From Clavelina lepadiformis (Eukaryota; Chordata; Ascidiacea; Aplousobranchia; Clavelinidae): DNA of 64,000 nucleotides. Under the pieces are notes generated by a model. That model saw only the letters and a program-made list of their open reading frames with translations. It did no database searches and was not told the DNA's origin. Below are positions 41,597 to 49,895 of this stretch, in pieces. The translations under genes and the position numbers were made by a program. The DNA lies in contig NC_135240.1 in assembly GCF_947623445.1 (NCBI RefSeq), forward strand, positions 18,972,001-19,036,000, in the 5' to 3' direction. The number at the start of each line of letters is the position of its first letter. Position 1 is the stretch's first letter.

Positions 41597-41603
41597 TGAT
41601 GAC

Positions 41604-41979
41604 CAAAGAGATTTAAACACATGAGTAGAAACTTCTCTTTTGCGCATGACGTCATGTTCGTTTCTTTTATTCTCTTGGAGCATATTCTACTTTCTCCACG
41701 GTCACGGTTCACTACATAACAATAAACATGCAGACGACGACAATGATTTTCAGATCTGTTTGCTGCTGGAACAGATTAGTCTTATTATTAGGGTGCAGTT
41801 ATTGGGATCCATTGGGTGTTAATTTTAATTGAAATTAATTATTGAAATCAGGTGAGAGTTTTAGGTTCAGCAATTAACTTAGTTTCAGTTCCTTGAACTG
41901 ATAATGCTGCTGTTTTGTATCAAGGCATGGCTTAGCCTACTTGAGTTGCGCGGGAAGATTTTTTCGTTCACCACATTTA
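41604..41979 (+). repeat. Left terminal inverted repeat of element A
   Basis: 376 bp. By eye it differs from its partner at about ten positions. It contains a palindromic TGACGTCA (CRE/ATF-type) site at 41647-41654. The plus-strand gene starts 136 bp after it ends. Confidence 0.9.
41647..41654. promoter_or_regulatory. CRE-type palindrome in left terminal repeat
   Basis: TGACGTCA, the consensus for CREB/ATF binding, is conserved in both terminal repeats. The role is inferred from sequence only. Confidence 0.35.
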
Positions 41980-42115
41980 TCTTCGACCAGGCAATTAGCA
42001 ACTAAACTCATTACTCATTAGCATAGGCCTTATGTTGCAGGTGTTGTGTTATTAAAATAGGCTACTGAAAGTCTGATTTCAGATCTTGTTATTGTGGTGC
42101 AGTTGTTGGGATCTA

Positions 42116-43325
42116 ATGGATGTCAACTTGAAGTTAATTATTGAAATAGATTGTGACCCAGAAGACGATGCAGCAAACTTCATGTAAGATACGATATGCC
42201 TATTAATCAATTAGCCAACTGCTGTTGAGCTTGTCCTGTATGGCGGTCACCCAGAGTGTACGTTCTCGCCAATTTATAATAAACAGCCAAGCAAAACAAC
42301 AAATTAATGTAAGTCGTAACGAGTATTTGAAGTAATACTGTACTGATATATTGATGTCATTTAATCTGATAATGAAAATATTTATTTGCAGATGTGGACA
42401 ATGTTTGCATAACTGCACAAGTAATGAAACTTTGCTGGCTCATCAAAAAACTGCTCACGGTATATTTGTTTGAAACTTATTTCATTTTGAGCTCTATCAT
42501 TGGCAGATTCCGATTAAAAAAATCAAACAAACTTAATTTTACACTTGTCTTGCAGAATCTTCTTGCAATAATGTTACAAGAGAAAAGCTGATGGAATGGT
42601 GGGAAACAGTGGGTGGCGTTAAAACAGATCTAACTGCAGATGCGGTTAACTATTTTATGAAGCTATTTTCTTCGTACAGTTCACCGGATGAACTGTTTCA
42701 TAAATTCTCCTGTGATGGAATTACGTGCATCCCATCACTATTTTTCTTGCCAAGAAAATTGTCACTATGTTTAACACGAAAATTGTTTGATGTATTTTTA
42801 TCACACGTTACCACTGTTGCACACAACAAAAAGGGGAAACACTTGACATTACACAAGTTAACCCGAGACGAAGAATTCATAATTCAGTACATAGGTGGTT
42901 ATATTTTGCAGAAACTCACTAAGCGCTGTATAAATCCGAGAGAAATAGATCTATTGTCTTGTTTAACTGATTATAGTAATGAAACCACTAATAGTTCCTT
43001 GATTTCCGCTTTAAATAATAACAATTATGGACATCTTACAGTTCCAGCGAAATTACTAGTGAAATTGTTGATGTATGTAGAAAGTGTCTTTAGGAAACAA
43101 GACATAAAGGAGCACATCATGGAAAGTTGCATGTCTTCTTTGAGTGTTTGTAACATAAAAGATATATTTGAAAATCTTGTTTTTGATGAATGTTTGCAAA
43201 AATTGTGCATGAAAATATGTAAATTTTACGTGAAGATTAGATGCTATCAAAAAGCCAATCATTTAAATTCAGTACTGCATGTAACCTCTGATCAAAATGT
43301 AAGTCTGAGAAAATCATTAAAATGA
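42116..43325 (+). CDS. Element A accessory gene: C2H2 finger + YIGGYILQKL protein
   Basis: Exons 42116-42183, 42392-42459, 42556-43325; both introns have GT/AG ends, phases fit, and the product is 301 aa. Residues about 23-46 form a C2H2 finger (CGQCLHNC...LLAHQKTAH). Then come WWETVGG, TADAVNYFMKLF, FSCDGI, TRKLFDVFLS, and LTRDEEFIIQYIGGYILQKL, a motif like the YIxGYVxxKL seen near the C-termini of several transposase families; a helical Cys-containing tail follows. It has no DDE residues, so it is not the transposase itself. A GTAAGT near 43299 could be a donor to a further exon. A homologue with the same first two intron phases lies in element B at 47893-48897. The frame is open throughout, unlike the transposase on the other strand. 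Function unknown; DNA binding at element ends or regulation of transposition is a guess. Confidence 0.75.
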
Positions 43326-43432
43326 ATGTACATTACATAGTTGTCTTCTTACATGTACTTCGTCAGTTTTAGCTCAAGAAGGATTAAGTGTTACTGTATT
43401 GTAAGCAGACTGTCAAAACACTCGAAATCAAG

Positions 43433-46400
43433 TTATTTTTTTCGCTTCGGCATTGGATCATCGCAAACATCACCATGTTTCCAGTCAATAACGTGATTTA
43501 CATTTGACCCCTTAAGTGACTTGATATTCTTTTTGCACATTATCACATTTTCAAATTGTGCATATTGGTGAATATCAGGCACTTCATTTCGACGGCCAGT
43601 TTGTCTCATATGACCGAAATAGGCCTCCAATGGGTCTTGGTTTAAGCGCTTAGTTAAGACGTATGAACCTTCTGGGCTGTTCTCCAACAAGAATTTCACC
43701 AATTCAGCAATGGCCATGGATGTGGAAACTAAACCGTCGTAGGTTTGATGGCTCAGAAACTGCTTTGACTGTTCGGAAACGGACCCAGTTAAACTGCTTT
43801 TCCATTGTTGTAACTCTGAAAGGAATGTATTAAGCCATTTCAGACGAGGATCATCAATCGTTGTATATGGTTTCAAGTCAGGGTTGTATGAATAATTTAA
43901 TCTGGTGTTCATGAGGTCAAACCAGCAAACCACGCACTCATCTTCATTTCTTCTCCACCACGACTCTTCATTAAACTGGAGACAGTTCCAGAGAGCAATT
44001 GTGCGGCATAGCAAACCCGCATTTTTGCGTAACTCTTATGGGAAAAATGGCCATCAGTCAACTTGCAACTTCTCAACTCTGAGCTTTCAAACAGGTAGGG
44101 AACATGGCAAAAATGCTTCCACAAAATGAAATGTTGATTGTACTTCATCATTCTAGCTCCACCTGGACGGCTGGATCTCACACAGTTACAGGCTGTCTTC
44201 AGCAAGTGTGGAGGGTCACTAATCAAATAAATAGGCATTTCTGGCTGATAAATATTAATGCACTTGTAGGGGACGGTCAAATTGGAATTATTGAGCAATT
44301 GGAACAATTTTTGATTGCAGGATGCACCATCAGCAACAAGTGCTAAGACTGTAAAACCACATCCGGCCAAGGATTCAACCACTTCCCAGAACATGCTAAC
44401 CAAGTGAAATGCCTTTGTATTCTTGGTGGCATAAAAAACAATAGGCCGGGAAAAATTGCTGAGGATACTCCTACCATAAAATTGTAGGGCATGTGTGGCA
44501 GGAGCTTCATTATTGTATTGTCTGTCGACACCCAGATCAACAAATCCTATTATTCGGTCTGTTGCTGCATTATACACAATATTTTCTTTCACTGTAAACA
44601 AAATAAGCAACAGGTTATATCTTGTGCATATACAGTTAATAACTTGTGTCATTGTTTTGTCATAAAGCATGAATAAGAATCTTACACAGTGTGATTAATA
44701 GTGTTAAAAATTCCAAGAAAAGTTTCACCTTTCATTTCATCGATTGATATAACGAGAAATCGTTCATGTGATGCTAGACTGAGACTTTTGGATTTCAGTT
44801 CTTCTAAAACATTATCTTGAATGCCAGGTGCAGTGCAGTAAACGTTTCTGAAAACAGTACAAAAGTGAGCAAGTGAAACAATTGCTCGTAGTTAGCTTGT
44901 AGTAGCCAAATTGCAGAGAACAGAACCCATACGCTACCGATAGTCATTTAGGGTGCGTGAGCTTGGTAGTCGTAAAATGCCACTTTGTCGTAATTCTTCA
45001 TAGGCGCTTTTACTTTTAGCAGCTAGACTCAAACAGAACCTATAGAGAAAATTGCAAGGGTTGATTTTAGCACGCTTTTACGAAATAAACAAAAATTGAG
45101 GTCAACTGAACTTAGTTACTCAGTAGTAGTTCAGTTCTGAACTTAGTAGTTATTCAGTAGTTTATTACTCAAGGAGACCTAAACCTACTTTATTAACTCA
45201 GGGTGATATCTTTCCCCATTTCTTTTCATACTATTTAGCTTTTGCTGCTCTTTCCAAAAGATTGAGTAGAAGTTATCAATTTTATCCTCATCTTGAGCTA
45301 AAAAAATGTATGATATTAACGTAAACTTCACAAAAACACACGACACAAAAAGACACAATCTTGCGAATGAGACTATTACTAATAGGATTACGAAGTGCAA
45401 TATCACCAAATTTCATTAGCAGTAAAGGTGGAGGTAATTCGAGATGGTAGGTTAAATGTTGGCTGCGCTGATCGTTTTAAAGGTTGATCTTTAACCATAT
45501 GGTAATAATTTAGCCTTTTCTGGTTGAGCCGTCCCTCCTTTTCATCTACACTACAACAACTCCTGCACTGACCACTTTCCTTGAGAAAAAGTTCACAACT
45601 TGCATTTCTAACAACAAGAAATTTGGTTCATTTAACAAGAAAAGTCACAAAATATGCCTAAGATACTGTGTACACTTTAAGTGCAATGCATTATCAGTGT
45701 TACCAAAAATAAGTAAGTATATGGTCACTAGCAGCATGCCATATTGACCCGTTACCGACATACACATAGGCTTATACATATGCTTGTTAACAACCAGTTC
45801 GCAGATGTCATTAAAATTCCAAGAACCGGTTCGCACGAACCGGCTGAATCCCACCACTCTATATGATTCATTCAATGTTAAATAATGATAAATTTCATTT
45901 ATGTAACAAATGCAATAGGCACAATTGAAAAACTAGTTTCACCTGTATGCAAGTTTCCTAACCGTTGGTGCATTTTCAGAACTGAATGGTGTCATAGATT
46001 TGGTGGTCATGTGTGGCAGGCCACTTCCAGAACTATACAATCCAGAACATATTGAAAACGATTCAATATCTTTTATGGTGCCGTGTAGTGTTTGAGTAGT
46101 TATATCCAGGGAGTAAATACAACTTGAGCGAGGTGCTTTCCAGCCATAATAGCATATCCTTAATGACATGTCATATAATACTCCAATCGAGTATTTAGGT
46201 TAATCACAGCCATCATAAAAAGAAAAAACAAGATTTTTGTTTTCAAATGACCTCTGCCAACCTTCCGGCAAGCGAGCAGATTTCAAGGACGCAACAGATT
46301 TGAAATGTACTTTTGTTTCAAAGATACGCTTCTTCGGCGGCTTTCTTGAATGTACCTGCGCCAAAGTCAGCTTAGGCAAAGACAAAGTGGGTACTGCTCC

Positions 46401-46935
46401 TTCACGTAATTCTTTACGGGAACCCTCTGCAAAAAAACTCTTATTTGTGCATACATGAACATTTTCAATTTTGATACTTGTAATGGTACATATATTAATC
46501 TGAAACCACAGTGAAGGTTTGCACTAATAGCTTGTCACAGATGCAGTGTTACGCTGTGCTCACTCGCTAGTAAATTTAATGAAGTTCTGCATCAAACCAT
46601 CTCATGGAAAACAAACACTGCATCAAACGCTAGATATGCCATTACATTAAATATCTTTCCTCAATACACTAGTTACACTGCATGTAAGTCTATGTAGAAC
46701 AAATTTTACTTAAAACAATGTCAGATCTTTCAAAATGCACTTCACACATTTTCACAGCATCTCGAGCAAATAGGTTTTTTATGTGCTCGTCGCTTCTGCA
46801 AGCCAGCACGATACACTCCAACCTTTCTGCCCAGCTTTCCTTCTCCTTTTTTACAAATTTTCTCGAAGGTATCTTAAACAGAGTCACGGCAGGTGACCTG
46901 TTGTTGCACATTGGTAAACAGCACAAATTTGCCAT
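43433..46935 (-). pseudogene. THAP-domain P-element-type transposase (THAP9-like), broken
   Basis: Exons in transcript order: 46935-46710 (THAP zinc finger: CCLPMC, FKIPS, SWAERL, CEVHF), 46426-45943, about 45607-45407, 45297-45189, 45039-44938 (FCLSLAAKSKSAYEELRQSG), 44847-44729 (ISIDEMK), 44591-43433 (FVDLGVDRQYNNE, LALVADGASCNQ, SDPPHLLK, LNQDPLEAYFGHMRQTGRR). The three acidic positions IDE, ADG and PLE match the DDE set of P/THAP9 transposases. Breaks: an in-frame TAA at about 46200, and a frameshift between about 43910 and 43990 before CWFDLMNTR. The phase of exon 3's donor is not settled. Intact length would be about 800 aa. THAP9-type enzymes bind and cut terminal repeats in the nucleus; this copy cannot make a full product. 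Confidence 0.85.
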
Positions 46936-47116
46936 TATTTCAGACTATTTAGCTTATTTCAATAACTTAAAGCCTGCAACATAAGACCTGTACTATTGAG
47001 TCTTAATCTGTAAAGTTTTTATTCTGCGCGTGGAGCGAAATTTTATGCGCAGATGAAACAATACAATATGACTCGGTCTATCTAAATTTTTCATCCATTC
47101 ATTTTATTTTTCACCT

Positions 47117-47492
47117 TAAATGTGGTGAACGAAAAAATCTTCCCGCGCAACTCAAGTAGGCTAAGCCATGCCTTGATACAAAACAGCAGCATTATCAGTT
47201 CAAGGAACTGAAAATAAGTTAATTGCTGAACCTAAAACTCTCACCTGATTTCATTAATTAATTTCAATTAAAGTTAACACCTATTGGATCCCAACAACTG
47301 CACCCTAATAATAAGACTAATCTGTTCCAGCAGCAAACAGATCTGAAAATCATTGTCGTCGTCTGCATGTTTATTGTTATGTAGTGAACCGTGACCGTGG
47401 AGAAAGTAGAATATGCTCCAAGAGAATAAAAGAAACGAACATGACGTCATGCGCAGAAGAGAAGTTTCTACTCATGTGTTTAAATCTCTTTG
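47117..47492 (-). repeat. Right terminal inverted repeat of element A
   Basis: Reverse complement of 41604-41979. Carries the same TGACGTCA site at 47442-47449. The transposase ATG (46935, minus) lies 181 bp inside it. Confidence 0.9.
47442..47449. promoter_or_regulatory. CRE-type palindrome in right terminal repeat
   Basis: Mirror copy of the site at 41647-41654, about 510 bp upstream of the transposase start. Confidence 0.35.
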
Positions 47493-47651
47493 TGATGACC
47501 TAGATTCTAGAATATCTTTGTGCCGTTTATGATAGTTTCGTCATAGCTTTCAAAAAATTTTGTAATACAAATTTCCCACTAACATTGATTTTGTTTGTAA
47601 ATAGATTGACAATTTGTTGTTTGAGTCGATTTGATTGCCGTTTTGTTCCAA

Positions 47652-49895
47652 CAACGATATAAAGAACATGATGGGAAACTACCTCCTCCTCGTTTCTTTC
47701 TTTTTTATGAGAAAAAAAGGTTTTGTTTCGCTCGCGTCACGCATGGTTGCGTACACTTACTCGCTGACACTTCGCCAGTCGTGGCGAAAACTTTTACGCA
47801 TTTGCATGGTTCGTTTGTCGATTACTGAGAAGTGAGGTTGCTGTTTACGTTGTTTTGACGATTCAAACGTGTGTAGCCTATCAGTTGCCCACATGTCGTC
47901 TGCACCAGCACTTACTGCAGAATATTTAATTGAAATCGTTGTCGACGATGAAGAGTGTAGAATCAAGCCTGTATCATCTTCTGCTTTGCAAGCTAATGAT
48001 CTCTTTCAGTAAGTTAAGAATTAAGATAGGCTGAGGCTACAAGCAGAGACCTTTTAAGTATATGGTGCTTATAGCTTTATATGATTTAGAAACTCTCTCT
48101 CACACCAGGAAAATAGAAGGTTGGATGCATTTAATGAGTTTACTTTTGCATGTTACTGGTTAGGTGTAAATACTTTGATGAAAAATTTAAAAGTCAGCGA
48201 GGTTTTGAAGGTCATCAAAAGGTCAAGCATCGTGGTTATTTAGGTAAGTCCTGTTGCCTTAAGGTTTTGTATATTTTTATAAGTTTGCATGTTTAGCAAG
48301 ATAAATTTGTGTGTATGCCAAATACAGGATTTTTCACAAGCTAACATTTTTTAAGGCCTTTCCTCTGAGAAGTGTTCTTGCAAAACAATTAAAAGTATGT
48401 GGGTTGAGGTATGTGAATCACCAGATGATTTGACGACAGAAGCCATTGATTACTTTATGAACATTTTCGCCACCAAACCAAATGGATCTGAGTTGTTGAC
48501 AACGTTTAGTATAGATGGCATATCTAGAATTCTTCATATTTTTGGCCCGAATGCAGATCGATGCAAATCACTTGAAGCCACAAGAAAAATGTTTAATCTT
48601 TTTCTCAGGTATATATTTTTATGATTTAGCTTAACATTTAATGTGATAAGATATTAATGTTGTATTATACTGATATTGAATGGTGTGGTAATATGTTCCA
48701 ACTTTCTGAAATCAATTGCAATAAGTTGGATTGTTTACTCTAGGAAAATACACGCAGAAAATAGAACAGAATTGCCATCAAGTAACCTTACTCCTGATGA
48801 AATTAGTATTCTCGAATATGTTGGAGGATATATTCTGCGTAAACTGAAACGCAATTTTAATTTGTATGTTACACATTTGTACACGTTTCGTCTTTAAATA
48901 AAGGTGGTGAGTCCACCCTGTGTGTAAATTCAAACGCAACAAAATGTTTATGATGTAACAAAGGCTTTGTTTGACTTGAATTGTAGATCATGAAATAATG
49001 CTTGCTATCTAGTTTTGATGGCAGGAGCTAGACGTGTAAACATTCAATTTATTTGCTTATCGCTGTAGTTAAAAGAAAAGCGATTACACGGTTCGAAAGA
49101 GGAATGTCCTGCCGTGTCAAAAATGTTTTAGTTGTCAAAATTGACCCATCGTACGTCGAGTAATTGTACAAATTTTAGTATTGGTTTTGCAAGCGTGGAT
49201 GTGCTTTTTTCCTCGCCTCTCGAATGAGTAGTAAATTCGTTGTTACTTTTTTGTTGAATGGGCGTTTGATAGTCAGTAAGTTGTTCAGGGGGCATTATCG
49301 GAAAAAAGTTTGGGAAACACTGGGTTAGACACTCAAAAATAATTTCAAAAAAAACTGCTTACTCATGATAATGTCTTCTTATACAAAATGCTCCTCACAG
49401 ATTTTCACTTGATCTTTGCTGTACAACTCTTGTATAAACTTGTCCTCTCGGTATGACAAAATTTTTCTTTGTAATACTTCTGCCCATGCTTCTTTTTTTT
49501 AATACAAAATTTTTTGTTTGGTGCACTAAACAAATTGTGCTGAGGTGGACATGGCAACAACATATAGGCCTACGTGGCATTTTTATATTGCAGTCTCAAT
49601 CTGCAAGCATACCTGTAGATATTTAGGTCTAGTTTCATCGAGTTTTAAAAATTTCGCACCATTGTAAACTTCAAAGTTAACCAAATTAAGCTAGGCCTAT
49701 AGGCCCTACTGATATATACGCTTACAAACGTCACCTTACTCTAATCATAGTTCTTTCTCCGTAAGGCTACACTAAGTCCAAGGCTCAATCTAAGTCAAAC
49801 GTGTCAAACGGATGTGTCAGCACTGAAGCGTAAAGAGGGCGAAATAAAAACGGTACTTCCCCTATCAGTTTCTTATCATGTTCTTTATATCGTTG
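47652..49895. mobile_element. Element B: 2.2-kb P-like element with 21-bp TIRs
   Basis: Perfect 21-bp inverted ends starting CAACGATATAAAGAACATGA (47652-47672, 49875-49895), flanked by GTTCCAA at 47645-47651 and at 49896-49902, a 7-bp duplication. It starts CA, as element A and Drosophila P do. It carries only a homologue of element A's accessory gene, no transposase, and has hAT-like debris at 49255-49325 (ends like CCAGTGTTTCCCAAACTTTT on the reverse strand). It begins 152 bp after the target duplication of element A. Confidence 0.88.
47893..48897 (+). CDS. Element B homologue of the accessory gene (truncated?)
   Basis: Exons 47893-48008, 48164-48243, 48356-48608, 48744-48897; GT/AG ends and matching phases give 200 aa. 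The first two introns lie at the same places and phases as in the element A gene. Matching blocks: LIEI near the N-terminus; a finger region CKYF...FEGHQKVKH in which the second Cys is Phe; TTEAIDYFMNIF; FSIDGI; TRKMFNLFLR; LTPDEISILEYVGGYILRKL. It has an extra intron not in element A, and the C-terminal 140 residues present in A are missing; a possible donor (TTTGTATGTT) just after KRNFN could lead to an exon I did not find. Because the finger is incomplete it may not bind DNA. Confidence 0.6.

Follow-up and report, generated by a model that had tools for sequence, protein, structure and literature searches.

In a 64,000-nucleotide stretch of the genome of the ascidian Clavelina lepadiformis (the window; C1:18972001-19036000 of assembly G000), positions 41604-47492 hold a cut-and-paste transposon of the P superfamily whose transposase is probably divided into two chains, encoded by a pair of convergent genes. 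The gene on the minus strand encodes a THAP domain and the catalytic core. The plus-strand gene had been taken in an earlier note on this DNA for an accessory DNA-binding or regulatory protein. That it is a genuine gene of this transposon lineage has been upheld, but a better reading of its protein is that it is the C-terminal domain (CTD) of the transposase itself, encoded by a separate gene. The analysis establishes the anatomy of the element and the pairing of the two genes, as well as a layout that is conserved in two families of the transposon.

Anatomy of the element

The features of the element are listed below in window coordinates, with transposase exon limits that were predicted from open frames and splice signals.

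41597..41603, left target-site duplication, TGATGAC
41604-47492, whole element
41604..41979, plus strand, left terminal inverted repeat (TIR), 376 bp, aligned to the right end
42013..42064, plus strand, subterminal segment, inverted repeat of 46950-47001 (81%)
42116..42183, plus strand, accessory exon 1 (start codon at 42116)
42392..42459, plus strand, accessory exon 2 (C2H2 finger)
42556..43325, plus strand, accessory exon 3 (helical region and THAP9_C/CTD-like domain; end ...SLRKSLK; stop codon ends at 43325)
43433..44591, minus strand, transposase exon 8 (RNase H, GTP-binding insertion, DPLEAYFG, end ...PKRKK), frame-shifted in the window
44729..44847, minus strand, transposase exon 7 (DEMK motif, first catalytic-type Asp)
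44938..45039, minus strand, transposase exon 6
45189..45297, minus strand, transposase exon 5
near 45354, transposase exon 4, deleted in the window copy (about 330 bp gone) and present in other copies
45407..45607, minus strand, transposase exon 3
45943..46426, minus strand, transposase exon 2 (in-frame stop in the window copy)
46710..46935, minus strand, transposase exon 1 (THAP domain, start codon)
46950..47001, minus strand, subterminal partner, pairs with 42013-42064
47117..47492, minus strand, right TIR, 376 bp
47493..47499, right target-site duplication, TGATGAC

The two arms (41604-41979 and 47117-47492) are inverted over 376 nt and 98% complementary. Over these arms and the subterminal stretch of 52 bp, the sequence 5′ of one gene is thus an inverted copy of that 5′ of the other, and the likeness extends almost to both start codons, which lie 512 bp (accessory) and 557 bp (transposase) inward from the respective element end.

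The ends were compared in 20 copies, namely the window and 19 of 20 fetched regions (L039-L055, L057 and L058; L056, whose right end was not recovered, was left out). All 20 begin with CAAAGAGATT and are flanked by an exact 7-bp duplication, at 20 distinct sites. All 20 copies carry a T at -3 from the duplication and 19 of 20 an A at +3, strict positions that are set in a weaker palindrome, roughly TTR-GTTWAAC-TAA. Matches to the element are found on contigs C1 to C9 and on one small contig of the assembly. TIRs bordered by a duplication of 7 to 8 bp are a mark of the P superfamily, whereas the 8-bp duplication of canonical Drosophila P and Pdre2 is replaced by one of 7 bp in every copy.

The transposase chain

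The minus-strand exons match the Pfam profiles TNP-like RNaseH_N (E 6.8e-19) and TNP-like GBD (E 2.3e-5), as well as the solved fly P transposase 6p5a (E 3.9e-5). The first exon in the window matches the THAP profile PF05485 with E 7.7e-5 and 23.8 bits, 0.1 below the cut-off of 23.9; the relatives P0003, P0004, P0008 and P0011 score above this cut-off, and P0010 is not listed. A THAP domain is accordingly found where the P superfamily has it, at the N-terminus of the transposase.

The window copy of this gene is broken by the stop in exon 2, the absence of exon 4 and a frame-shifting loss in exon 8, while the accessory frame beside it is open, just as the earlier note had described. In the copy L049 the eight exons join unchanged into a protein of 840 amino acids that carries the motifs DEMK, VADGA, SDPPH and DPLE. 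This is the sole copy among the 20 in which all transposase exons and splice sites are open; the transposase of L050 is also open, although 51 nt and the junction of exons 4 and 5 are missing from it. In a protein alignment (A5, P0004 numbering) the aspartates D448, D537 and D573 are invariant and E780 is nearly so, its position being absent in P0003, which terminates early, and the conserved catalytic acids of the P superfamily are thus in place. The predicted 840-residue chain stops about 60 residues past the DPLE motif, so that, on the predicted exons, CTD and catalytic core do not lie in one chain as they do in canonical P. When a butterfly CTD was used as a query on the genome, one weak match was obtained (E 0.0017), spanning six stops.

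Four of the copies (L040, L041, L043 and L045) have one internal deletion in common, through which they lost transposase exon 2 and a portion of the THAP exon; they are a non-autonomous subfamily that spread.

The accessory chain

The three plus-strand exons join through GT..AG introns into a protein of 301 amino acids that contains a finger of the form C-x2-C-x12-H-x4-H and the motif YIGGYILQKL. The same 301-residue model exists at NCBI as the gene LOC143471789, whose protein P0001 is 98% identical to the window accessory. Its sequence shows 0 differences from the accessory carried by L054, a copy in which an internal deletion has removed transposase exons 1 to 7. Arm alignment, profiles and exon joining thus bear out the anatomy that the earlier note had drawn, i.e., near-identical 376-bp repeats, a 7-bp duplication, a THAP/P-type transposase on the minus strand and a spliced gene on the plus strand.

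Two partly independent lines point to the domain carried by the accessory as the CTD of a P transposase. The label THAP9_C (PF22824.3) is precomputed on P0001 and on P0038, though not on P0002. In structural comparison the best match of the accessory is the P transposase CTD, with residues 145-289 of the P0001 model matching the fly CTD, the fold of which it is predicted to share. A search of the Clavelina genome with PF22824 gave no match, but equally gave none in 14 control genomes and is uninformative. No relevant match came from a PDB sequence search with the accessory as query. Rfam gave nothing.

Pairing of the two genes across the genome

Transposase and accessory matches were listed genome-wide, all counts from these lists being lower bounds. 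At least 63 transposase matches were clustered into at least 56 loci, and accessory matches were sought within 4 kb of each. Such a match is present at 38 of the 56 loci, and is convergent at 37 of these 38. Among the family-1 loci, defined by transposase pieces 89% or more identical, 35 of 36 have a convergent accessory match, the one without being C5:16009668, and the genome holds at least 46 family-1 accessory loci. This contradicts both outcomes that would have set the second gene apart from the lineage, that most full-length copies lack it or that it came with an unrelated transposon inserted in one copy; the pairing is family-wide and recurs in a divergent family (below).

Three of the 35 paired loci (C2:15691268, C3:10315521 and C6:16251534) have an accessory match of just 43 residues at 61-63% identity. 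Their transposase stretches are still 90-96% identical, and they may form a subfamily whose accessory was replaced or has eroded. Two further convergent loci are more distant, with transposases 59% and 50% identical. At the non-convergent exception, C5:5680156 (48%), the nearest accessory is of family 1 and lies 2.1 kb off, and family-2-like DNA adjoins the locus. Besides C5:16009668, no accessory match lies near five loci that are short fragments (61-76%) or near 12 that are remote and P-like (22-25%); the latter include C1:2885219, C3:6147501, C7:13899553 and C8:19352569 and have open frames of 296-797 amino acids.

The divergent family (family 2) is represented by L059 (C4:16742300-16747600), where a family-2 transposase and an accessory of 318 amino acids, with one intron more than in family 1, stand on opposite strands, tail to tail. 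The accessories of the two families are 35% identical across 293 aligned codons, and both share with a protein of Styela clava the four finger ligands, Y-GGYIL-KL and the C-terminal SLRKSLK. Synonymous differences between the families are saturated (proportion pS 0.83; nonsynonymous divergence dN 0.66). For this reason the ratio of dN to synonymous divergence (dS) was rejected as a measure of selection between families, and what the comparison of the sequences can support is long-term constraint only.

A remnant of family 2 also lies 160 bp to the right of the element.

47652..49895, plus strand, family-2 remnant, ends CAACGATATAAAGAACATGAT, duplication GTTCCAA (7 bp)

It retains the first part of the family-2 accessory, and a family-1 transposase query found no match inside it. 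Around its duplication there is likewise a T at -3 and an A at +3.

Retention of the accessory gene

An open accessory beside a broken transposase had suggested to the earlier note that the gene may be kept by selection or by host use. In 17 of the 20 copies the accessory has no stop and keeps its start codon (L050 and L055 have stops and L052 has lost the start), but this sample was chosen by accessory match, which biases the share of open accessories upward. In the genome-wide lists accessory exon 3 is uninterrupted at 20 of 46 family-1 loci, and a transposase stretch of similar length at 19 (strict) to 23 (short ends allowed) of 36. Since the contrast vanishes there, special retention of the accessory was rejected, and the open frame in the window, taken alone, is no sign of selection. 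Among the accessory and Styela-relative matches that were examined, which are not all of the matches, no stand-alone host gene was seen; one match, C1:2255932, is in neither family list. Retention by selection or host use is therefore unsupported.

Over the 20 copies the ratio of nonsynonymous to synonymous polymorphism (pN/pS) is 0.56 in the accessory and 0.63 in the transposase. For changes found in one copy only it is 0.57 and 0.84, which, as raw ratios, leans slightly toward the selection that the earlier note had suggested.

A proposed transposase in two chains and its alternatives

In the mechanism proposed here, chain 1 (minus strand, eight exons, 840 amino acids when intact) would supply the THAP domain, the helix-turn-helix (HTH) region, the RNase H fold and the GTP-binding insertion, with the catalytic-type Asp, Asp and Glu placed in its DEMK, VADGA and DPLE motifs. 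Chain 2 (plus strand, 301 amino acids) would supply the C2H2 finger, a helical region and then the P-transposase CTD, the linker before the CTD having been turned into a gene boundary. The two chains would join in the transpososome, where the separate CTD may grip the transposon ends and the target DNA, as the CTD of the fly complex does, and the finger may add recognition of DNA or of the partner. Because each gene begins just inside one of two near-identical ends, the accessory gene likely has its promoter in the left TIR and the transposase gene in the right TIR, twin promoters that would probably drive both genes and lead to their joint expression. Physical association of the chains, a requirement for both and promoter action are what we infer from this arrangement. 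As for the origin, it may be speculated that the CTD exons were inverted inside an ancestral one-gene element and came under the promoter of the other end, which would account for the convergent layout.

Several results weigh against this reading. The local profile PF22824.1 matches neither P0001 nor P0002, Foldseek against the PDB, taken alone, gave nothing significant for the accessory, and comparison of the accessory with P0031, both pairwise and by profile, was marginal, though the same motif was aligned; moreover, helical models may score high by chance.

An accessory of CTD descent might instead have become a regulator, e.g., a trans-acting repressor made from deleted copies, with the 840-residue transposase working alone. 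This would suit the many deleted copies that retain an open accessory (in a sample picked by accessory match), the annotated gene from a copy without transposase exons 1 to 7, and the lower single-copy pN/pS. Fly P likewise encodes a repressor without the C-terminal third of the protein (PMC7776569, in the part available), but that repressor retains the N-terminal DNA-binding part, the opposite of the accessory. With the two-gene layout conserved across two families, the accessory open no more often than the transposase genome-wide, and a CTD that contacts transposon and target DNA many times in the fly complex (same part of PMC7776569), a regulator is unlikely. Much less credible is the view of the earlier note, by which the accessory would be a foreign DNA-binding or targeting factor, unrelated to the transposase and captured by the element: the finger and the lack of any local Pfam match over the cut-off are what it would predict, but the THAP9_C label on P0001 and P0038, the P transposase CTD as top structural match and the absence of a CTD from the element's own transposase all speak against it. 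The open accessory beside the broken transposase of the window could also come from a gene domesticated by the host, or from a host gene that was captured by chance and in no other copy. This idea is rendered highly improbable by the 46 accessory loci of family 1 and by the pairing at 35 of its 36 transposase loci, the more so as all matches other than C1:2255932, which was not read, fall in the lists of the two element families.

DNA transposition has one of its models in P elements, and the known fly enzyme is a single chain with a CTD that grips transposon as well as target DNA. If nature has split the enzyme at the disordered linker, as in the two-chain transposase preferred here, this would show that the CTD can be separately supplied, and its role would be testable by simple complementation. 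Transposase partners may also hide in annotations as "uncharacterized" genes, of which LOC143471789 is an example.

Comparison with known systems

Ciona P elements (Kimbacher et al. 2009) are tunicate members of the P superfamily, reportedly with one transposase each. The nearest transposases to that of Clavelina, from Ciona, Hydra and unplaced contigs, likewise end soon past the DPLE-type motif, with the exceptions of P0003, which ends before it, and P0005, which continues about 115 residues beyond. Either unrecognised partner genes or loss of the domain would explain such tail-less proteins. Relatives of the accessory number 11 rows in the protein search (eight from Clavelina, one from Styela and two unplaced, one of these resembling Clavelina family 2). 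It is conceivable, if on balance doubtful, that an ancient second P lineage, in tunicates and perhaps back to cnidarians, has an obligatory two-chain transposase, in which a catalytic chain without the tail would work with a zinc-finger CTD subunit from another gene, as well as convergent genes and promoter-bearing ends, as an independent parallel to RAG1-RAG2; if so, an unrecognised partner gene should exist for each tail-less transposase, be it from Ciona (LOC144746139), from Hydra (LOC124812779) or from one of several unplaced contigs. No two-gene P element was found in the open-access literature, Repbase being outside the scope of the search.

Scans of IMG/VR with the accessory and transposase alignments gave no relatives. 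Among prokaryote genome contigs, a partial P-type transposase was seen on one short contig, L060 (CALFDU010000058.1), filed under a Saprospiraceae metagenome-assembled genome and perhaps eukaryotic contamination. P0023 (908 amino acids, from an unplaced contig) is a P-like transposase with C2H2-like fingers in the same chain, by weak Pfam matches, and may show another way in which finger and transposase were joined.

Drosophila P (DmTNP, PDB 6p5a), THAP9 and zebrafish Pdre2 also combine THAP, HTH, RNase H with a GTP-binding insertion, CTD and TIRs. In the excerpts available, Drosophila P and Pdre2 have a single chain that includes the CTD, TIRs of 31 or 13 bp and 8-bp duplications, whereas the Clavelina element has a convergent pair of genes, TIRs of 376 bp and duplications of 7 bp. 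Galileo, a Drosophila element of the P superfamily, likewise has TIRs that are long, duplications that are mostly of 7 bp and a target motif that is palindromic, according to an excerpt of its description (PMC4168063). In the same excerpt, Galileo has one transposase of 905 amino acids, which includes a THAP domain and resembles THAP9 at residues 251-884, whereas in Clavelina the CTD is on the second gene.

By analogy, the nearest system is the RAGL transposon, with its convergent RAG1L and RAG2L genes. As the available part of PMC7204232 has it, RAGL/ProtoRAG likewise places two tail-to-tail genes, for a catalytic and a partner chain, between TIRs, and the partner chain, like the Clavelina accessory, is less conserved and harder to find. 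RAGL differs in belonging to another transposase family and in making 5-bp duplications, and neither a RAG1L/Transib-type core nor such a duplication is found in the Clavelina element; RAG2L, moreover, is a kelch/PHD protein and not a split-off piece of the transposase. The split proposed here would be, beside RAG1/RAG2, the second case in chordates of a transposase partner encoded on a convergent gene.
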